From assembly GCA_029556545.1 (NCBI GenBank), contig JAKQEQ010000029.1, forward strand, positions 1 through 64,000: DNA of 64,000 nt. The letters run 5' to 3'. Source of the DNA: Candidatus Hydrogenedentota bacterium (lineage in GTDB: Bacteria; Hydrogenedentota; Hydrogenedentia; Hydrogenedentales; JAGMZX01). Shown here piece by piece: positions 13,355-39,168 of this stretch; position 1 is the first letter of the stretch, and each line of letters begins with the position of its first letter. Under the pieces are notes generated by a model, which saw nothing but the letters and a program-made list of their open reading frames with translations, was not told the DNA's origin and made no database searches. The position numbers were made by a program, and so were the translations under genes.

Positions 13355-16336
<2,982 letters not shown>

Positions 16337-16587
16337 AGTGTGACCCTCCGCTCTGCCGTTCAATCAATATCGCCGTATAGTCATCGAGAAGCCAGAAGTT
16401 GCCGGCCACATGCCGCAAACGCACGACGATCTCCGCCTTATTGCCGGCAGACTTGACTTCGCGAACCGATCGGACACTATATCACCCCGTAGTCTTACCC
16501 ATTGGGAAAATCTGCGGGAAAACCGCCGAACCGGGATGTCCCATTCATTGTTGAAGCCGCCGACGGCGTCCACAGCATCGTTACTCC
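16337..16587 (-). other. Long leader with coding-like remnant
   Basis: The ~245-base leader between the predicted promoter and the start of the InlB-repeat gene has no known riboswitch that I recognise. One minus-strand frame in its proximal part reads KAEIVVRLRHVAG then NFWLLDDYTAILIE, which resembles the end of a jelly-roll (MAM-type) domain. It follows a TGA near 16479 and runs on out of frame into the InlB gene. It is probably a decayed gene end. Confidence 0.35.
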
Positions 16588-22377: not shown

Positions 22378-23226
22378 CTACCGGCTTGCGGAGTCCGCGG
22401 CGGCGATCCAGTCTCGGAATACGGCGAGGTCTTCTTCGCTCAGCGGGTCGTCGCGATACGGCATCCGCGGCTGCCGCGTCCCTTCAAGGTACTGGATAAG
22501 CACGCTACTGTCCGGGTCTCCGAGGACAACCGTGGGGCCGCCCTTATTGCCGCCGCGCAGCAGGCCCTCGAGGGTCGAGAGGTCCAGCCGCGATTTCGCC
22601 TTCTCGCCCGCGTGACAATCCAGGCACCGCGCCTCGATGATGGGCCACACCCGCTCCTGGAAGACGACTTGCGAGAGCACGGCCGCGGTTTCCGCCGCCG
22701 GCGCATCGGAGGCGTTCGCCGGAGGCGCGGTCTGGCCCTCCGCCGCGGCTTGGGTCACCACCAACGCCGTACCTACGCCGTGTTCATAAACCAGCATGGC
22801 GCCGCGATGGGCGGTCATGCCGACCAGTCCCACCGTGGCCAGACCGGCTACGCACGTGATCAGGCGCATGATCAGGCCGGTTCGCGCGTGTGGGATAAAC
22901 GCCAACAGGGCAAACACCGCCGCAACGGCCGCGGCGATCCAAACCGTTCCTGCGGCCGATTCATGCGCCTCGATATGCGCCCACACCTCCTCCGGCAAGG
23001 TCTCCGGGGCGGCGCTCATGGCGCGTTCGCCCGTCCAGACAGTAATCAAAGCAACCGCGACCAACGCCGCGTAGGCGATTGCGGTCAACCATAACAGGGA
23101 CTTCCGCTTCGCGAAAACCGCCGCGCACAGCGACAATGCCGCGCCCGCGACGGCGAGGACGATGGGGAAATGCACCGCCATTGCATGGAGCAACGGGGGA
23201 TGCCGAAGGGCCTCAATGAAACTCAT
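22378..23226 (-). CDS. DUF2231 membrane domain fused to planctomycete-type cytochrome c
   Basis: A 282-residue protein. The N-terminal part has four or five membrane segments starting HPPLLHAMAVHFPIVLAVAG, a DUF2231 signature with conserved histidines. After a Pro/Ala-rich linker, the C-terminal ~100 residues are a planctomycete-type cytochrome c: ARCLDCHAGEKAKSRLDL has the CxxCH haem site at about residues 200-204, followed by GDPDSSVLIQYLEG and RMPYRDDPLSEEDLAVF. The haem domain would face the periplasm. Electron transfer to or from the membrane domain is inferred from the fusion. It stands alone between convergent amt and the TIM-barrel run. Confidence 0.85.
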   Translation of the reverse strand: MSFIEALRHPPLLHAMAVHFPIVLAVAGAALSLCAAVFAKRKSLLWLTAIAYAALVAVALITVWTGERAMSAAPETLPEEVWAHIEAHESAAGTVWIAAAVAAVFALLAFIPHARTGLIMRLITCVAGLATVGLVGMTAHRGAMLVYEHGVGTALVVTQAAAEGQTAPPANASDAPAAETAAVLSQVVFQERVWPIIEARCLDCHAGEKAKSRLDLSTLEGLLRGGNKGGPTVVLGDPDSSVLIQYLEGTRQPRMPYRDDPLSEEDLAVFRDWIAAADSASR

Positions 23227-23300: not shown

Positions 23301-24182
23301 TTACGTTGCGCTTAACGCACCTTCTTGGCGAGAAAAGGCGCGCCACGCGCCCATCGAACGCGTAAGGTGTTCGCGCGCATCGCCCGGAATGCCGTAACAC
23401 TGCAACCCCACCGGGCCGTCAAACCCGTGCTTCTCGAGCACCGACAGGAACCGCCGCACGTCGAACGAGCCGCTGTCGAGCGGCTGAATCCAGTTGCCGG
23501 TTCCCGCGTGAATCTCGGAGGCGCGGTCCGCGCCGTGGATGCTCACGGCGTAGAGAAACGGCGCGGCCTCGGACGCGACGCGCTCCAGATTCTCCTCGTC
23601 GTCCACCTTGAGCCAGTGGCAGAGGTTGAACATGACGCCCACGTTCGGCCGCTCGGCTTTGCGCGCGAGGCGGACGCAGTCCTCGACCCGTTCGAGCCAG
23701 TCGTTCGCGTGGGGGTACAGCACGACGCGCACGCCGAAGGGCCGGGCCTTGTCCGCAATCTCGCGGATAAGCGCGACGCCGCGTTCGTCGCCCGCCGGGT
23801 CCGACGGCGGCGCGCCGGTCATGAGCAACGCCAGCATAACGTCGCGTCCGGCGAGGATCGGCAGCGAGCTATCGAGCCGCGCGTCGTAAGGCGTGTCCTG
23901 TGCGCCGATATCGACGCGCAGGTACACCTGAAAGAGTTTCAACCCCGCCGCGTCAAGCGTCGCGAGGCGTTCATCGAGATGGTCGAGCCAGAGATGTCCC
24001 GCGCCGTCGAAGCCCAGTTCTTTGAGCAAAGCCGCCTGCTGTTCGAGCGTTCGTTGCGCGCTGTCGTGGGTATCCATGCAGAAAGCGAAGAAGGGATGGC
24101 GCGGCGGTTCCGCCGCGCAAACCGAGACGCACGCGATAATCGTGACCGCGACGCCGGAAGACCGCCCAAGCCGTGAACGCAT
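23301..24182 (-). CDS. Exported xylose-isomerase-like TIM-barrel protein
   Basis: A 293-residue protein of the sugar phosphate isomerase/AP-endonuclease-2 superfamily. The ATG at 24182, nine bases after the upstream gene, opens a signal peptide (GVAVTIIACVSVCAAEPP). The barrel follows: ELGFDGAGHLWLDHLDERLA, VVLYPHANDWLERVEDC, NVGVMFNLCHWLKVD and SIHGADRA. The NLCHWLK stretch corresponds to the metal-binding strand seen in relatives that act on keto sugars. The end is GFDGPVGLQCYGIPGD. Being exported, it probably acts on extracellular or periplasmic sugars. It is the last gene of a four-gene minus-strand run of exported enzymes. The reaction is not known. Confidence 0.8.
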   Translation of the reverse strand: MRSRLGRSSGVAVTIIACVSVCAAEPPRHPFFAFCMDTHDSAQRTLEQQAALLKELGFDGAGHLWLDHLDERLATLDAAGLKLFQVYLRVDIGAQDTPYDARLDSSLPILAGRDVMLALLMTGAPPSDPAGDERGVALIREIADKARPFGVRVVLYPHANDWLERVEDCVRLARKAERPNVGVMFNLCHWLKVDDEENLERVASEAAPFLYAVSIHGADRASEIHAGTGNWIQPLDSGSFDVRRFLSVLEKHGFDGPVGLQCYGIPGDAREHLTRSMGAWRAFSRQEGALSAT

Positions 24183-24190
24183 GTCGAGGC

Positions 24191-25147
24191 TCAGCTTCGC
24201 CACGGGCGCGTCCGTTGCACCCCCAACAGCGCCTCGCGAATCAGCGCCGCGTCCTCCTCGATCTCGAAATCGAACATGCCCGCGAGCACGTGGTCCGCGC
24301 CGTTCTCGAAAGCGTGTGCGAACGCCTCCTTCGGCGGAATCGCGCCCGCCGCCATCACCTTGAAGGCGATCCACGGCTTCTCGACGCCCTTCATCGCCTC
24401 GATGGTGTCTTCCGGGTCGCGACACCAATAGCCGGGAATCTCGCGAATCGGATCCGTAAGTTCCTCGGGCCGCGGCGCGGTCGGATAATGATGATGGTGA
24501 TACGTCTTGATATAGAAATCCGCCGGGACGCCGCGCGCCTCGCATTCCTTGATCACGCGCAGGTCGTGCCCGCCCACGCCCGACGGCAGGCCGTGCCCCT
24601 TCACCAGCTCGACGGCCTTCACGATCGCGTCGTACTTCTCCTCCTTCACCAAACGGTCGGCGCTGACGCCCCAGACGTAGATCGCCTCGATGCCGTTCTC
24701 GACCAAGCCCTCGACCTGCTGCACGTAGGCGTCCCACTGCGCGTCCGGCGCGGCGGTCGGGCAGATGATCCATTGCATCCCGCCGCCGCGCTCGCGGTGA
24801 TGCCGCACAATGCGATCGACCGACGGCACGGTGTGGATGACCGTCGTATTGACGCCGTTCCGCACGGCGAGATCGAGCGTATCGAGTATCTTCTCATGCG
24901 TGTTGTAGTGCGCCGCGAGGTCGTACACATACATAAGGTCGCGGCTGTGCGTGAAATGGGTAAGCAGGTTCCCGCCCAGCAACAGGCGGCTTACGGACAT
25001 CCCCGCAATGTTCCCTCGCGGCATCGCCGCCGCCGACTCCGTCACGACGCCCTCCTGCGTGGCAGCGACGCGAGCGCCCAGCGCGGCCACAGCCGACAAG
25101 CCCAACGTCTGCTTCATGAACCCTCTGCGACTGGTTCCCTGTTCCAT
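24191..25147 (-). CDS. Tat-exported TIM-barrel protein of unknown function
   Basis: A 318-residue protein with a twin-arginine signal (TSRRGFMKQTLGLSAVAALG), so it is probably folded with a cofactor in the cytoplasm and exported through Tat. The ATG at 25147 follows GGAAGGAAA. The mature part is a TIM barrel resembling aldo/keto-reductase-like proteins (MSVSRLLLGGN at the first strand, GIEAIYVWGVSADRL, WIAFKVMAAGAIPP, ADHVLAGMFDFEIEED), but the catalytic Tyr/Lys pattern of true reductases is not clear. The stop is eight bases before the xylose-isomerase-like gene, so the two are surely co-transcribed. The substrate is unknown; a role in sugar oxidation or isomerisation is inferred from its neighbours. 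Confidence 0.75.
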   Translation of the reverse strand: MEQGTSRRGFMKQTLGLSAVAALGARVAATQEGVVTESAAAMPRGNIAGMSVSRLLLGGNLLTHFTHSRDLMYVYDLAAHYNTHEKILDTLDLAVRNGVNTTVIHTVPSVDRIVRHHRERGGGMQWIICPTAAPDAQWDAYVQQVEGLVENGIEAIYVWGVSADRLVKEEKYDAIVKAVELVKGHGLPSGVGGHDLRVIKECEARGVPADFYIKTYHHHHYPTAPRPEELTDPIREIPGYWCRDPEDTIEAMKGVEKPWIAFKVMAAGAIPPKEAFAHAFENGADHVLAGMFDFEIEEDAALIREALLGVQRTRPWRS

Positions 25148-25230
25148 CGTGCGATTTCCTTCCATTGCCCGCCGTTGTGTCTCTTGCGACCCGGTTGGCT
25201 GCCGCCACCGCTTCGATCACGATTATACGC

Positions 25231-27234
25231 CTATTCGACCTCGACGACGAACGAGGCCGTCACGGACTCTTTCCGCGCGCCGGTGGCGGTCAGCGTGGCG
25301 GTGTACCGGCCAGGCGCGTCATAGGCGAACGATACGGCGTTGCCCTTGACACGCTTGCCGTTTCCGAAGTCCCACTCCGCCTTGCTCAGGACCGCCGCCG
25401 CGTCGAACGAAACCCCGGCGCCGAGGGGGAACGCCTCCGAGACCGCCACAGGCAGCCGCCCCGACGGGCAGCGCAAGACCGCCCCCGCGTCGAAGGCGCT
25501 TGCCGCGCCCGCGCGCAGCCGCACCGGCTCAGGTGGGACCGAAGCGCCCAGCGGCGCATCGCCAAAAAGGACATCGGCAACGGCGCGGATGCTTTGGTCG
25601 CAATGCTGGGGGTCGCAGTACGCGATCAGCACGGCGTCGGCCTGGGCAAAGCGAGGCAGTCCGTGCGGATAGCCGATCAGCACGACCACGACGCGCCCGC
25701 CGGTGGCGCGCAGTTCGCTCACCAGTTTCGCCTGGCCCTCGGTAAGCAGGCTGCTCGATAACAGGCATACGATGGTGCGCACCCCCCGATTGCGGTCCGT
25801 AATCCGCTTGATCTCGAAGTCCTGCACCTCGCCGAGGTGCAGCGCCGTGGCGATCCGCTGCTGCGCCAGCGGCTTCATCTGCTTCTTGAGCAGTTCGTAC
25901 AACTCGTCTACGCCCGCCACCCCGGTCACCAGCAGCGGCCCCGAAGTCTTCTTGTTCAGCGGCAACACGCCCCCCTCGTTCTTCACGAGGGTCACGCTCT
26001 TGCGCTCCGCCGCGTAACACAGTTCCACGAAATCGCGCCGCGAGGCGACCTTCTCCGCGTCGCGCTCCTTGATCGGCGCGACCGTCGGCTGCCGATGCGC
26101 GCGCTTCGCCTCGATCACGCGCCGAAGCGATCCGTCCAGCGCCTCCTGCGACAAGCGGCCCGATTGCAGCGCGTCGCCGATGCGCCGCACGGCCTTGAGC
26201 ATCATCGGGCCGGACTGCTCGAAATACAGCATGTCCGCCCCCGCCTCAAACCCGAGCACGGCCGCCTCGGCGGCGTCCGCCACCTGCGTCACCTGACGGC
26301 TGTCCATCGGCCCTGCCACGATCACGCCCTGGAACCCGAGCCGCTCGCGGATCAGTCCGCGAATCACCTGTTCCGACAGGCACGCGGGACGTCCCAGCGG
26401 GTCAATGGTCGGCACGAGCGTATCGCCCACGTGGATAAGCAATACCCCGCTCTCGACGGCGCGGCGATAGGGCAGCAGGTCCTGCTCGCCCAGCAGCGCC
26501 TCGGGCGTCAACAGCACCGCCGCCGACCCCGCTTTGCGGTTCGCGCCGCCGCCCGGGAAGCCCATCGGCATCGCCAGGACACCCGCCTCCCGCGCCGCGC
26601 CTGTGAACACGGCGGCGGCCTCCCCGGCGAACACCGGATCCGCGCCGAAGCAGTGGATGGTCCCCGTTGCGCCGGGCAACTCCGGCGCGAGTTCAAGCGA
26701 CGGCCCGAGGTACAGGTCGAAGCCCATGCCGCGCATGTGCTCCGCGATGACCCCCGCCACGTCGCGCACGGCGGCCATGTCGCGCGCCGCGCCCAGTGCG
26801 AGCATCGAGGGAACCTGCATGAAAGTACTGACGGCCCCGCGTTCCCGCTGCGCCAGCCAGTGCAGGTTGCCGCCGATCCAGAGGGGCAAGCCCGTGCGCA
26901 ATTCGAGTCCGCGCAGCCGCGCCGTGTAAGACGCCGCCGCCCCGGGACTGTTGATCTGTTGAATGATTACGCCGCCCGGCGAGCATTGTTCGAGGTAGGC
27001 GAAGTCGCTCGTCGAGGGCCGCGTGCGCCCCTCGGCGGTTACGATCATGAGTTGGCCGATGCGCTGCGGCGGCGTGAGCTTCTCGACGGCGACGGCCAGC
27101 GCGTCTGACGGCGGATTGGAAACGACCCCCGACACATCCTGCGCGGGAAGGGACGGGGCCGCCACGGCGATAAGCAGGAAGACGCGAATCGCGCACCGCG
27201 CCGCCCGCATGCGTATTCGGCCCGCGCCAGTCAT
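25231..27234 (-). CDS. Exported GH3-like protein with altered active site and PKD-like end
   Basis: A 667-residue protein resembling beta-N-acetylhexosaminidase-type GH3 enzymes. The ATG at 27234, ten bases after the upstream gene, gives a signal peptide (CAIRVFLLIAVAAPSLPAQD). The barrel starts LTPPQRIGQLMIVTAEG with the GGVIIQQ strand. Where active enzymes have the KHFPGHG motif this protein has PMGFPGGGANRK, and where they have the nucleophile in GVVxSDD it has GVIVAGPMDSRQV. Both catalytic regions therefore look lost. The second domain has VTLVKNEGGVLPL (GH3 C-terminal type). The last ~90 residues form a PKD-like fold (AEWDFGNGKRVKGNAVSFAY). It may bind rather than hydrolyse glycans. Confidence 0.78.
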   Translation of the reverse strand: MTGAGRIRMRAARCAIRVFLLIAVAAPSLPAQDVSGVVSNPPSDALAVAVEKLTPPQRIGQLMIVTAEGRTRPSTSDFAYLEQCSPGGVIIQQINSPGAAASYTARLRGLELRTGLPLWIGGNLHWLAQRERGAVSTFMQVPSMLALGAARDMAAVRDVAGVIAEHMRGMGFDLYLGPSLELAPELPGATGTIHCFGADPVFAGEAAAVFTGAAREAGVLAMPMGFPGGGANRKAGSAAVLLTPEALLGEQDLLPYRRAVESGVLLIHVGDTLVPTIDPLGRPACLSEQVIRGLIRERLGFQGVIVAGPMDSRQVTQVADAAEAAVLGFEAGADMLYFEQSGPMMLKAVRRIGDALQSGRLSQEALDGSLRRVIEAKRAHRQPTVAPIKERDAEKVASRRDFVELCYAAERKSVTLVKNEGGVLPLNKKTSGPLLVTGVAGVDELYELLKKQMKPLAQQRIATALHLGEVQDFEIKRITDRNRGVRTIVCLLSSSLLTEGQAKLVSELRATGGRVVVVLIGYPHGLPRFAQADAVLIAYCDPQHCDQSIRAVADVLFGDAPLGASVPPEPVRLRAGAASAFDAGAVLRCPSGRLPVAVSEAFPLGAGVSFDAAAVLSKAEWDFGNGKRVKGNAVSFAYDAPGRYTATLTATGARKESVTASFVVEVE

Positions 27235-27244
27235 GGCGGCGTGC

Positions 27245-28132
27245 TCACACCTGTTCGAGGCACGCCAGCGTGGCGCGCAGCGTGTCCTCATAGTTGCCGC
27301 TCGAGTGGCCGCATTCGAGGGCCACGAAGCCCTTGTAACGGGTCCGCGCAATCGCCTTGAAAATATTCACGTAATTCAGTTCGCCGGTGCCGGGTTCCTT
27401 GCGGCCGGGATTGTCCGCCACGTGGAAATGGCCGATGTTCCTGATGTTTCCGGTAAAATTGCGGATGACGTTGCCCTCGGTGATCTGCTGGTGATAGATA
27501 TCGAAGAGCATCTTCAGCCGGGGGCTGTCCACCGCCTCGACGATCTGTATGGCGTGGTCCGTGCGGCACACAAAATAGCCGGCGTGATCGACAAGCGGGT
27601 TTAATGCCTCGAGCACCAGCGTAACGTCGTTGTCCTCGGCGATGGGCACAAGCCGCTTGAGACACGCGATCACGTGTTCGGTCTGTTGCTCGCGCGGGAT
27701 GTCGTCGCGCTCGTTGCCGCTCAGCGCCACGAGCCGCTTGCAGTTCAGGCGCTTTGCCAGCGCGACCCGTTCCTTGAACTGCGCGACTACCTTTTCGTGG
27801 TCGTCCGGGTTGACCATGCCGCCCGGTGCAATCGCGCCCGCGCCCCCGATACAGCTCAATTCGAGGCCGAGCGCGTCCGCCCGCGCGCGAATCGCGTCGA
27901 AATCGCCGTCAGGCCCGAGCCACTCGTACGCGGGCAGCCCCCACGCCGCCACGTGATCCAGCCGGTCCTCCGGCTTCTCGCCCGGGAACCAGTCCAAGGG
28001 CGCGGACATGCGGAGTTTTGCATTCGAGAAAGGCTTATCCTCCGGTGCGGCGGCGAGCATGGGCGCGCCCTTCAAGAACCCGGCCCCGAATGTGGCCGCG
28101 GCGCACGCGCCGACAAATGTGCGACGATTCAT
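27245..28132 (-). CDS. Exported hydroxypyruvate-isomerase-like TIM-barrel protein
   Basis: A 295-residue sugar isomerase-family protein. The N-terminus is a Tat-like signal (MNRRTFVGACAAATFGAGFL). The barrel matches the hydroxypyruvate isomerase/tagatose epimerase group: LVLEALNPLVDHAGYF (metal-binding Glu), LKMLFDIYHQQITEGNV (Asp, His, Gln), GHFHVADNPGRKEPGTGELN (His) and FVALECGHS at the end. All expected metal ligands are present, so it should be an active isomerase or epimerase, but outside the cytoplasm. It is first in a four-gene minus-strand run leading through the GH3-like protein to two more exported barrels. Confidence 0.87.
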   Translation of the reverse strand: MNRRTFVGACAAATFGAGFLKGAPMLAAAPEDKPFSNAKLRMSAPLDWFPGEKPEDRLDHVAAWGLPAYEWLGPDGDFDAIRARADALGLELSCIGGAGAIAPGGMVNPDDHEKVVAQFKERVALAKRLNCKRLVALSGNERDDIPREQQTEHVIACLKRLVPIAEDNDVTLVLEALNPLVDHAGYFVCRTDHAIQIVEAVDSPRLKMLFDIYHQQITEGNVIRNFTGNIRNIGHFHVADNPGRKEPGTGELNYVNIFKAIARTRYKGFVALECGHSSGNYEDTLRATLACLEQV

Positions 28133-36246: not shown

Positions 36247-39108
36247 TTACTCGGGATCGGGCGCAACGGCGGCGGGCAGCAGCCGTACCGGACCCAGCAG
36301 GCCCGAGTCCAGGAGCGGCCAGTCGGAAGCGTCGAACGGTTTGTACCGGATGTTCACGAAATTCGCGTCGTGGAACTTCTTCCATGCAACGTTGCGCCGG
36401 TCCATGTCGCGAATACGGTTCGCCGCAAGGTTGGTAACCTCGACAGCGAGCGAATTCTTCCCCGGACGCGCGAATTCGCCGATGAACAAGCGGAATGGCA
36501 GACTGAAAAGCGTTCCGACGTGTGCGCCGTTCACGTAGACGCGCGCGCTTTCGCACACCCGCCCGAAGTCGAGCAGCCAGTCGGCCGCGCCGTCCTCGGG
36601 AAGCTCAAACGTCGTCTCATACCGGGCTGTCCCGGCGAAAGTCTCGGCCGCGCCGCCGCGCGTGGTCCACGACGCAAGCCGGTTTGTCTCGAAACCGGGC
36701 GGAAGATCGGGCCCGCCCTCGATGAATGTGACGCGCCACGGCGTGGCCGGCGCCACAGCGGGCCGGTCCTCGAGGACGCGCCGATACGGCCAGGCTCGCC
36801 CGGCAACCTCCCGTTCCGTGAACGTGCGCAATACGAGCGACTCGCCGGGCGCAAGCTGAAGATAACATGCCGTGCCGCCGTCGGGCAGCGTGCGCACCGC
36901 CGCGACCCCGGCGCGGTCCACGAAGCACGGATCGAGGAGGACGGCGGACCGCGCCTGCACGCCAAGCGGGACCCAGCCGTCCAGCGTGTGATCGCCGAGA
37001 TTGGTGAGGAAATAGTGGCAGCCCGCATCATGCCTGCGCCGGATGAACCGCACGCCGGCGTCCGCGACCACCTCGCGCCGCACGCCCGCCGCCGTCAGCA
37101 ACGCTTCGCAATCCGCGCCTACGAGGATGCGGCCCGCGCCGAGGCGCGCCTCGCGGACACCGGGCGTGTTTGTATCGGCGAAGGCAAGGTCGCCGACGAG
37201 GCGGTCGTATTCCGCCTGGCGTCGCTCGAAATCGGCATAGCCCGGCGCGGAGGACGGTAACGCTTCGAGGGCGATCACCGTCGCGCCGCTCCGCGCGAGT
37301 TCGAACACCTTGCGCAGGGTCTCGAGCGGCAGGAACCGGCACGGGGGCAGGACGAGCACTCGGTACGCGCCGCCCGGCGCGCGCAAGCCCTCCCCGTCCG
37401 CCGTCACCGACGCGAGCAGGCGGTCCGAGACGTAGTCGAACCCGTAGCCCCGCTCCCAGAACAGCCGCGCGACGACCCCGAGTCCGCCGCACGCCAGCCA
37501 GCCCGAGATGTTGTGCACTTGAAGCGGGCGCAGCGTCGCGCCGGCGGCGGCGTCATGCCAGATGTCGTACATAGGGAAGTAGAGCAGCACGTCGTTGTCG
37601 GGCGCGCCCGACTGGAGCACCGACTGGCACCGGGCGATATAGGCGTTCAACGCGGGCAGATCGCGCCAGATCGTGTTCGACGGCCCGAAATGCGTCGAGG
37701 CGTAGAACAACCAACCGGGCCAAGGATCGTCCGGCGGCGAATAGGCGATGCCGTGATAGAAGACGTGATTCACGCCCGCGGCAAAGAGTTGGTCGATCTC
37801 GGGCTTGGCCTGCGCCAGCGACTCGCGGAAATGTTCCGCGAGCCACGTGCACGACTCGGACGCGATGAGCGGCTTCCCCGCCACGTGCGCCGCCGAAGAC
37901 GCAAACTTGATCATCAACGGCGATGGCCGGTCGCCCTGGAAATCCGGGTCCGTGCGCAGCCCCGGAATCTCGAACCCGCTCGCCCCGAAAATCTCCGTCT
38001 CCGGGATCGTCGCGGCGGCGTACAAATCGAGGATATTCCCCGGAGAGCCGTGGGCCTGATTGCGCGTCTCGCAGCCGAGCCGCGCTGACCAATCCGCCCA
38101 TGCCGTGATGTAATCGAGCAGCAACTCCGCCACCGTCTCGCGATAGTCGCTCGTGATCCGCGCCGCAGTGTCATCCGGCGCGTCATCGAGCAGCGCGGGT
38201 AAATGAGGCAAGAGGTCGTAACCGCGCCGATCTCGGAACGCGGCGAGGAAATCATCCGTCCAATTTGTGTGGTAGTACTCGAATGAATCGTGATACTGCG
38301 CGCGCGGCTTCGGTGCCCCATAGCCCGCGAACGCGGCGTCGAACCGTTCCAGATACCGCCGCAACGACGCCGTCGAATACGGATCGAGCACGTTCCCCTG
38401 ACCGCCCGGCGCCGCACGCTTCACCTGCTGTCCCGTCGGCAATTGCCGCACGATGTATACAAACCCGGGGACTGGCACAAGCGAGCGAGTCTTCGAGCGA
38501 GACGTGCCTGTCCCCGATCCTAGACGTGCCCAAGCACTGGTAAGGTCCACAAACTCACCCGCGCCCGAAACCGCCACGACCGCCTGCGGCATGGGACCCT
38601 CCGCCGGCAAGTCAATCTGCTCTCCCGGCGCGGTCTCGATCACCTGCACATCGAGTTTCGCCGCGGCCTCGTCCGGGCCGACCTGCGGCCCGCCGAAAGG
38701 CCAGCCCGTGCCGGTGCTCATGTCCACGCCCAAATCGAGCCGGTCCGCCGTAGCGACCGTGAATTCGAGCATCGTCATCCATTCCGGGCTGAGATACGCG
38801 AGGTAGGCGTCCTCCCGGCCCTTCACGCCGTAAATCGGGACAATCGTCATGCCGCCCATGCCCGCCTCGCGATACAGTTCGAGCACCCGCGCCATGTTCT
38901 CCCGGTCCACCGCGTTGCCCATCCACCACCAATACGTCCACGGCCGACACACCCGCGTCGCAACCGGCCACCCGAACGGCTCCGAGTTCACGTCCCCTTG
39001 CGCGACCTCACGCCCCGGCGGACGCTCCGCCGGCTCCGCCCCCGCCCCCTGCGCCGTAACCAGCACGACCATGACGCACCCCACGATTCCAACCACATAA
39101 GGCGGCAT
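36247..39108 (-). CDS. Exported GH106-like glycoside hydrolase (alpha-L-rhamnosidase type)
   Basis: A 953-residue exported enzyme. I chose the ATG at 39108, preceded by GAGGAG, giving the signal peptide VGIVGCVMVVLVTAQGAGAE. The catalytic domain opens CRPWTYWWWMGNAVDRENMA, GMGGMTIVPIYGVKG and FGVDMST-type strands (LGVDMSTGTGWPFGGP), characteristic of GH106. The middle contains YHDSFEYYHTNWTDDFLAAF with likely catalytic acids, and IASESCTWLAEHF. The C-terminal jelly-roll domains include DFGRVCESARVYVNGAHVGT. It should release rhamnose from plant or algal polysaccharides. Its ribosome-binding site directly abuts the mobile element at 39119, so transcription must begin inside or beyond that element. 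Confidence 0.82.
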   Translation of the reverse strand: MPPYVVGIVGCVMVVLVTAQGAGAEPAERPPGREVAQGDVNSEPFGWPVATRVCRPWTYWWWMGNAVDRENMARVLELYREAGMGGMTIVPIYGVKGREDAYLAYLSPEWMTMLEFTVATADRLDLGVDMSTGTGWPFGGPQVGPDEAAAKLDVQVIETAPGEQIDLPAEGPMPQAVVAVSGAGEFVDLTSAWARLGSGTGTSRSKTRSLVPVPGFVYIVRQLPTGQQVKRAAPGGQGNVLDPYSTASLRRYLERFDAAFAGYGAPKPRAQYHDSFEYYHTNWTDDFLAAFRDRRGYDLLPHLPALLDDAPDDTAARITSDYRETVAELLLDYITAWADWSARLGCETRNQAHGSPGNILDLYAAATIPETEIFGASGFEIPGLRTDPDFQGDRPSPLMIKFASSAAHVAGKPLIASESCTWLAEHFRESLAQAKPEIDQLFAAGVNHVFYHGIAYSPPDDPWPGWLFYASTHFGPSNTIWRDLPALNAYIARCQSVLQSGAPDNDVLLYFPMYDIWHDAAAGATLRPLQVHNISGWLACGGLGVVARLFWERGYGFDYVSDRLLASVTADGEGLRAPGGAYRVLVLPPCRFLPLETLRKVFELARSGATVIALEALPSSAPGYADFERRQAEYDRLVGDLAFADTNTPGVREARLGAGRILVGADCEALLTAAGVRREVVADAGVRFIRRRHDAGCHYFLTNLGDHTLDGWVPLGVQARSAVLLDPCFVDRAGVAAVRTLPDGGTACYLQLAPGESLVLRTFTEREVAGRAWPYRRVLEDRPAVAPATPWRVTFIEGGPDLPPGFETNRLASWTTRGGAAETFAGTARYETTFELPEDGAADWLLDFGRVCESARVYVNGAHVGTLFSLPFRLFIGEFARPGKNSLAVEVTNLAANRIRDMDRRNVAWKKFHDANFVNIRYKPFDASDWPLLDSGLLGPVRLLPAAVAPDPE

Positions 39109-39120
39109 GTCACGTCTCCT

Positions 39121-39145
39121 CGTTCCCAAGTTGTACTTGGGAACG
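39121..39145. repeat. REP palindrome, left copy
   Basis: CGTTCCCAAG and CTTGGGAACG form a perfect ten-base stem around TTGTA. It is the reverse complement of the right copy. Confidence 0.85.
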
Positions 39146-39168
39146 CGTTTTTCCACCGAAGCTGTGCT

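Follow-up and report, generated by a model that had tools for sequence, protein, structure and literature searches.

Extracytoplasmic metabolism of 3-keto-glycosides has already been described (PMC9007349, PMC11300592), and here we compared with it a run of four genes, p1 to p4, carried by a 64,000-nucleotide stretch of a Candidatus Hydrogenedentota metagenome-assembled genome (contig JAKQEQ010000029.1 of GCA_029556545.1, positions 1 to 64,000; hereafter the window). A preliminary description of this DNA had taken the run for a possibly uncharacterised saccharide pathway, which, in view of these published systems, it is not wholly. According to the accessible text of the two reports, an exported dehydrogenase and a PF06439 enzyme act on 3-keto-glycosides outside the cytoplasm in Bacteroides thetaiotaomicron (BT2156-BT2160, with the periplasmic glycoside 3-dehydrogenase BT2158; PMC11300592) and in Caulobacter (LacABC), and PF06439 proteins have been named 3-keto-trehalose hydrolase or proposed as a periplasmic 3'-keto-lactose hydrolase that goes with LacABC (PMC9007349). 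Proteins annotated as sugar phosphate isomerases also take part in 3-keto-sugar chemistry: in the levoglucosan pathway of Bacillus smithii (LgdA-LgdB1-LgdB2-LgdC), the accessible account assigns to LgdB1 a beta-elimination unaffected by Mn2+ and to LgdB2 a hydration helped by Mn2+ (PMC7676230). AtOGE and PuCGE, as described in the available part of their report, are TIM barrels that act as Mn2+ 3-keto-glycoside beta-eliminases and have a catalytic His two residues past the strand-5 ligand (PMC10628242). For p2 the closest described proteins are the NagZ-type beta-N-acetylglucosaminidases of glycoside hydrolase family 3 (GH3; 6k5j, YbbD, LpqI), a family in which an Asp-His dyad and a Lys-His pair have catalytic roles according to the accessible text of PMC6987092.

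The best combined explanation of the run, to which we assign a probability of about 0.6, is that it joins two independent units, p1-p2 and p3-p4, in which p2 would be non-hydrolytic and p3-p4 would be a pair for 3-keto-glycoside chemistry. The four open reading frames (ORFs) are consecutive on one strand, and we confirmed their order and the spacings given earlier, 10 bases between p1 and p2, 83 between p2 and p3 and 8 between p3 and p4. The 83-base gap needs p3 to start at the ATG at 25147, which has a better ribosome site than the ATG at 25165; a start at the latter makes the gap 65 bases. Linkage was followed in 68 Hydrogenedentota genomes, including the source genome (G000) and a second genome of its genus (G040), with orthologue-grade best matches only (p1 in 33 genomes, p2 in 60, p3 in 31 and p4 in 23; weaker paralogues were excluded). 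None of the other 67 genomes showed the four-gene grouping, and in G040 p1-p2 was located on contig C1 and p3-p4 on contig C31. We found p1 and p3 on one contig in 1 of the 24 genomes having both, the source genome only, and p2 and p3 in 1 of 30. The flanks of p1, p2 and p3, inspected for up to several kb in 20 loci each, held other, varying genes. Since the orthologues of p1-p2 and p3-p4 were unlinked in relatives and the flanks varied, the four-gene run is a local juxtaposition, in a single genome, of two independent units. The preliminary description had treated the four genes as one set and had named absence of the grouping from related genomes as what would speak against it, and this absence is what we observed. 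A conserved p1-p2 pair was also considered and rejected, as the two shared a contig in 2 of the 31 genomes having both and the linkage was confined to the genus.

p3 and p4 are a true conserved pair. Of the 23 genomes that have both orthologues, 21 carry them side by side in the same order and on the same strand, the match ends lying 12 to 201 bases apart; in one of the two exceptions (G052) the p3 match stops 19 bases from the contig end. An exact TATAAT lies just behind the p2 stop, and G040, in which p3 is not preceded by p2, has one at an equal distance upstream of p3. Exact copies were present within 180 bases upstream of p3 in 5 of 20 relatives. A consensus scan gave no full sigma-70 match at the TATAAT upstream of p3-p4, and the search for upstream sigma-70 promoters and terminators gave nothing exceeding shuffled sequence. 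The hexamer is at best weakly suggestive of a promoter of its own carried along with the pair.

At the domain level p2 resembles GH3 enzymes in both its N- and C-domains (PF00933, E 6.3e-33; PF01915, E 7.9e-9), and its best matches among solved structures are NagZ-type GH3 enzymes (6k5j, E 1.8e-32), with which it shares the GH3 fold. Unlike these enzymes, the p2 family has the nucleophile, the Asp-His dyad and the Lys-His pair replaced and carries a C-terminal PKD domain (58 of 61 orthologues). The 6k5j columns KHFPGHGDTGEDSH and VVVTD correspond to MGFPGGGANRKAGS and VIVAG in p2, with AGPxD replacing the nucleophile motif and xGFPGG replacing KHFPGH. We aligned 61 orthologues, leaving out fragments from G017 and G063, and found that the nucleophile Asp column of 6k5j (strand g) is Gly308 in p2 and Gly in 61/61. 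Pro309 (61/61), Asp311 (60/61) and Asn232 (55/61) were likewise conserved, as were Glu474 (59/61) and Arg477 (60/61) in domain 2. The Lys-His columns are Met224-Gly225 in p2, and neither Lys nor His occurred there in the 60 rows with letters; no D-x-H followed the PGG motif in the 21 family rows inspected. Because the nucleophile, the dyad and the pair are gone, p2 should be unable to act as a retaining glycosidase, and an active beta-glucosidase or NagZ was rejected on active-site residues. The family labels proposed earlier held for the domains (PF01261 in p1 and p4, GH3 in p2), while the GH3 catalytic residues were gone from p2.

Orthologues of p2 at E 1e-40 were found in 63 of the 68 genomes; of the 38 genomes with completeness of 90% or more and no more than 5% contamination, 37 carry one. 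A tree of 61 sequences needed 10 family-label changes, the minimum for 11 families. Because of this distribution and the congruence of the tree with families, p2 is an ancestral, vertically kept GH3-fold protein and not a standard GH3 hydrolase. The search of two other phyla, that of a Phycisphaerae record (G068; 199 genomes) and that of a Kiritimatiellae record (G069; 194 genomes), gave no p2 orthologue. At E 1e-20 the best matches came from 17 and 19 of these genomes, respectively, with identities of 24-38%; the loci read, 10 and 8 in number, were ordinary GH3 proteins that retained KHFPG and the Asp in 10/10 and 8/8 cases. Both features are also retained in the source genome's own other GH3 protein (L202). 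Judged from these alignments, p2 is a phylum-wide GH3 pseudoenzyme or repurposed enzyme. No literature on a GH3 pseudoenzyme of this kind, in Hydrogenedentota or otherwise, was found in a search that left subscription literature mostly outside, and the accessible parts of two Hydrogenedentota papers (PMC11406978, PMC10866078) make no mention of one. p2 might be a carbohydrate- or murein-binding envelope protein, a guess based on its kinship to NagZ, its export and its near-universality. Between G000 and G040 the identity of p2 was 64%, as compared to 79, 81 and 85% for the other three genes, and this faster drift would fit binding more than catalysis. Annotation by domains only would count p2 as a glycosidase in nearly every genome of the phylum. 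Of 11 GH3 loci fetched from Hydrogenedentota we compared 10 and noted two further GH3-like proteins with partly altered regions (L204 and L208, in G057 and G059); L204 lacks KH and the Asp of L208 lies one place off the column.

p4 matched PF01261 with an E value of 2.1e-19 and was more divergent than p1. It is predicted (4 sequences, pLDDT 77.2) to fold like IolE and ketose 3-epimerases, with 3cny giving a Z of 24.7 and a root-mean-square deviation (rmsd) of 2.9 over 261 aligned residues. When the ligand columns were placed via profile alignment to p1 and IolI, the metal site of p4 was found to be rewritten: the strand-6 metal Asp is Asn186 (30/30 sequences), the strand-8 metal Glu is Gln261 (28/30, with one gap and one Met), and the strand-7 His is Asn in 20/30 and His in 9/30. 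Tyr156, His158, Phe185, Leu187 and His189 were invariant over the same 30 sequences. Like AtOGE and PuCGE, as these are described in the accessible part of PMC10628242, p4 has a His at strand 5, the invariant His158 that ends it, but unlike them it is without the Asp and Glu ligands. A metal-independent mechanism is possible for p4.

We found that PF06439 (3-keto-disaccharide hydrolase) is fused before or behind a p4-like barrel, in both orders, in 9 of the 10 long paralogues, which were all listed p4-like ORFs with frames of at least 500, p4 itself excepted; the tenth has a beta-propeller-like stretch instead. One of the fused barrels belongs to the source genome, where a 1166-residue exported ORF on contig C150 (L214:1764-5264) combines barrel, PF06439 and HEAT repeats. 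A relative in G040, truncated where its contig ends (L274), shares this architecture. Because of these fusions, and because barrels of the levoglucosan pathway act on 3-keto sugars, a 3-keto-glycoside or 3-keto-glycal would be the likeliest substrate of p4. The Lgd barrels, which are of the sugar-phosphate-isomerase type, are likened to p4 by description and not by sequence, and, unlike for p4, export goes unmentioned in the accessible text of PMC7676230. We propose that p4, metal-independent or metal-altered, would process 3-keto-glycosides or 3-keto-glycal products and would work together with PF06439 lyases or hydrolases encoded elsewhere in the genome. The fusion gives a substrate class to a group of so far unassigned exported barrels that are annotated as sugar phosphate isomerase/epimerase.

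Its partner p3 had no Pfam match at E 0.1. The AF2 model (9 sequences, pLDDT 76.0) is an aldo-keto-reductase-like barrel, in support of the earlier view of p3 as a barrel; against 4exa it gave a VIA Z of 21.7 and an rmsd of 2.9 over 226 aligned residues, and all 50 entries listed by the structure search were aldo-keto reductases (AKRs) or the AKR-fold potassium-channel beta subunit. While p3 shares this predicted fold with AKRs (4exa, AKR11C1, L-galactose dehydrogenase), it differs from them in having no PF00248 match (it is absent among the 10 PF00248 matches of the source genome), an invariant polar set of its own with Lys220 ending strand 6, a twin-arginine translocation (Tat) signal and fusions to DoxX. 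Alignment by hhalign to the AKRs of its own genome gave a probability of 0.9% with no Asp-Tyr-Lys-His tetrad visible, in a weak alignment in which 1 of 5 rows is a wrong-strand ORF. With residues counted from the ATG at 25165, Arg60, Asn66, His73, Arg75, Tyr87, His200, Lys220, Thr221 and Tyr227 were unchanged in all 63 sequences compared, which include distant paralogues and 20 members from the Kiritimatiellae record's phylum. Lys269 and Asp299 were present in all 62 sequences with letters, and His223 was nearly invariant. The twin arginine of the Tat signal was present in 21/21 aligned sequences.

Close p3 orthologues occurred in 31 of the 68 Hydrogenedentota genomes, and relatives at E 1e-30 in 8 of the 194 genomes of the Kiritimatiellae record's phylum and once in a Phycisphaerae record; the p3 tree had 8 family-label changes (minimum 6). 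We read 11 of the 22 listed long p3-like frames and found a DoxX-like membrane domain (PF07681) in front of the barrel in 11/11, 7 over the cut-off and 4 just under it. p3 would represent an undescribed family of barrels, exported by Tat, and might supply a linked redox or lyase step. The family goes unmentioned in the accessible accounts of BT2156-BT2160 and LacABC (PMC11300592, PMC9007349). Tied to DoxX and to p4 and without a Pfam entry, it offers fixed polar residues for mutation. In the DoxX-barrel loci L264-L273 and L278, RR or RRAW stands between the domains in the two that were displayed whole. Profile searches with p3 also gave dihydrodipicolinate synthases (E no better than 0.26) and an oxaloacetate decarboxylase subunit (E 0.06), matches that were judged to be chance.

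p1 is the more regular PF01261 barrel (E 9.6e-39). It scored 142.6 bits with TIGR03234, the hydroxypyruvate isomerase equivalog (cut-off 353.45), and 122.4 bits with the 2-oxo-tetronate isomerase model (cut-off 325), reaching neither cut-off, and among solved structures it matched 3-keto-D-glucoside 4-epimerase (E 8.5e-10). Glu175, Asp211, His237 and Glu273, which correspond to the metal ligands of the family, were retained in 22/22 aligned sequences, as was the twin arginine at residues 3-4. In 8 of 20 loci of relatives a same-strand gene of one cluster lies 10 to 110 bases upstream of p1, and the one member scanned is a Gfo/Idh/MocA protein with a twin-arginine signal, of the family to which BT2158 also belongs. 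This gene precedes p1 in 8/8 loci of one family (f11) and in 0/12 loci elsewhere; in G015 a PF06439 gene stands directly upstream, bringing the loci with either gene to 9/20. The p1 tree had 6 family-label changes (minimum 5). The earlier suggestion that Gfo/Idh/MocA genes might occur near the barrels in relatives applied to p1 in that one family and in none of the other 12 loci. In the first unit, beside p2, p1 would act as a metal-dependent isomerase of keto-sugars (or keto-acids) exported by Tat.

p1 and p4 are likely to carry out keto-sugar chemistry of a known type outside the cytoplasm. As in the accessible accounts of BT2156-BT2160 and LacABC, PF06439 is involved, since relatives of p1 and p4 adjoin or are fused to it; unlike in those systems, the window scan found no dehydrogenase or PF06439 by p1 or p4, and the metal site of p4 is rewritten. 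The exported keto-sugar conversion suggested in the preliminary description accordingly finds support for p1 and p4 from neighbours and fusions; it does not extend to p2, whose catalytic residues are gone, and p3 is linked to DoxX and not yet to sugar. Export of all four proteins, two of them by Tat, agreed with our reading of the N-termini by eye (p1 and p3 Tat, p2 and p4 Sec-like), and the source genome has one TatC gene. The same description had regarded a set of exported isomerase-like proteins as unusual. The source genome has 34 PF01261 genes, and since an automatic export-signal filter missed p1 itself, we replaced it by reading 30 of the 34 N-termini by eye. Ten were Tat-like and 2 Sec-like, p1 and p4 included, indicating that exported xylose-isomerase-like barrels are routine in this genome (12/30). 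With 34 genes placed at random, 0.71 neighbour pairs are expected within 3.9 kb, and 52% of trials contained one pair or more. Barrel clustering was rejected as a signal, as chance alone predicts such neighbours.

Several observations weigh against two independent units with p3-p4 as a keto-glycoside pair. The gaps of the run are short enough for one transcript, and draft contigs may conceal some linkage. Close p4 is absent from 8 of the 31 genomes with p3, the fused p4-like barrels share no more than 35-44% identity with p4, and the models of p3 and p4 were built from 9 and 4 sequences with pLDDT of 76 and 77. Among the 13 other window proteins that were Pfam-scanned (33 other ORFs are listed), none had a PF06439, Gfo/Idh/MocA or GMC domain, and the keto-sugar link consequently rests on relatives and paralogues. 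The shared strand, the gaps of 10, 83 and 8 bases, the export signals on all four proteins and the keto-sugar links of p1 and p4 would suit one operon encoding one exported pathway, in which p2 cuts a glycoside, p1 and p4 convert the sugars and p3 reduces or oxidises. We consider this improbable, since the arrangement was not found in the other 67 genomes and is split within the genus, p2 lacks the GH3 catalytic residues tested, and a possible -10 box of its own precedes p3. With no linkage in the 67 other genomes, the four-gene operon was rejected. p2 may instead be active, with AGPxD and GFPGGxN(R) as a new active site for, e.g., non-hydrolytic transfer or a lyase reaction on glycans; the near invariance of Gly308, Pro309, Asp311 and Asn232, and likewise of Glu474 and Arg477, agrees with this. 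The drift of p2 within the genus (64% vs 85, 81 and 79%) fits binding better, leaving an active p2 a doubtful proposition.

It is also rather unlikely, and a little more so than an active p2, that p3 and p4 lack catalysis altogether, as pseudoenzymes or binding proteins. p4 has lost the superfamily metal ligands and a weak profile alignment revealed no AKR tetrad in p3, yet polar residues are strongly conserved over 63 sequences from two phyla (p3) and 30 sequences (p4), unlike in decaying sites, and barrels of the p4 type occur fused to an enzyme domain. That p1 and p4 act outside the cytoplasm on ordinary keto-acids or ketoses (hydroxypyruvate, 2-oxotetronate, 5-keto-gluconate) and not on 3-keto-glycosides would be in line with the best scores of p1, to TIGR03234 and the 2-oxo-tetronate isomerase model, but the equivalog cut-offs were missed by far and the PF06439 and Gfo/Idh/MocA neighbours and fusions point elsewhere, so that we give this only limited credence. 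Two independent units, with p2 non-hydrolytic and p3-p4 devoted to 3-keto-glycosides, remain our preferred explanation. A more far-reaching form of it is tentative: p3-p4 could be an undescribed extracytoplasmic 3-keto-glycoside pair, with p4 a metal-independent lyase or hydratase and p3 a new barrel family that passes electrons via the fused DoxX when membrane-bound, and p2 a phylum-wide, ancestral GH3 protein turned from hydrolysis to a new envelope role. New here are the GH3 look-alike present across the phylum, the fusions of p4-type barrels to PF06439 and the DoxX-linked p3 family.

Table 1. Positions of the four genes and of the upstream hexamer in the window.
Feature	Position	Strand	Description
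p1	27245..28132	-	Tat-exported hydroxypyruvate-isomerase/ketose-epimerase-like barrel, PF01261
p2	25231..27234	-	Exported GH3-fold protein, GH3_N + GH3_C + C-terminal PKD domain, catalytic residues lost
p3	24191..25147 (or 25165)	-	Tat-exported barrel, no Pfam family, predicted aldo-keto-reductase-like fold
p4	23301..24182	-	Sec-exported xylose-isomerase-like barrel, PF01261, rewritten metal site
TATAAT	25222..25227	-	Candidate -10 box for a p3-p4 transcript of its own, ~75 bases upstream of the ATG of p3; weak

Other genes of the window were noted in passing. The gene after p4 (22378-23226) encodes DUF2231 and Planctomycete cytochrome C (PSCyt1) domains, and a relative of it occurs near p3-p4 in three other genomes (G032, G046 and G064), but on the opposite strand. 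Farther away, a GH106 alpha-L-rhamnosidase-like gene of 969 residues lies at 36247-39156, and a protein with three InlB-type B repeats and three PASTA domains is encoded at 13355-16363.

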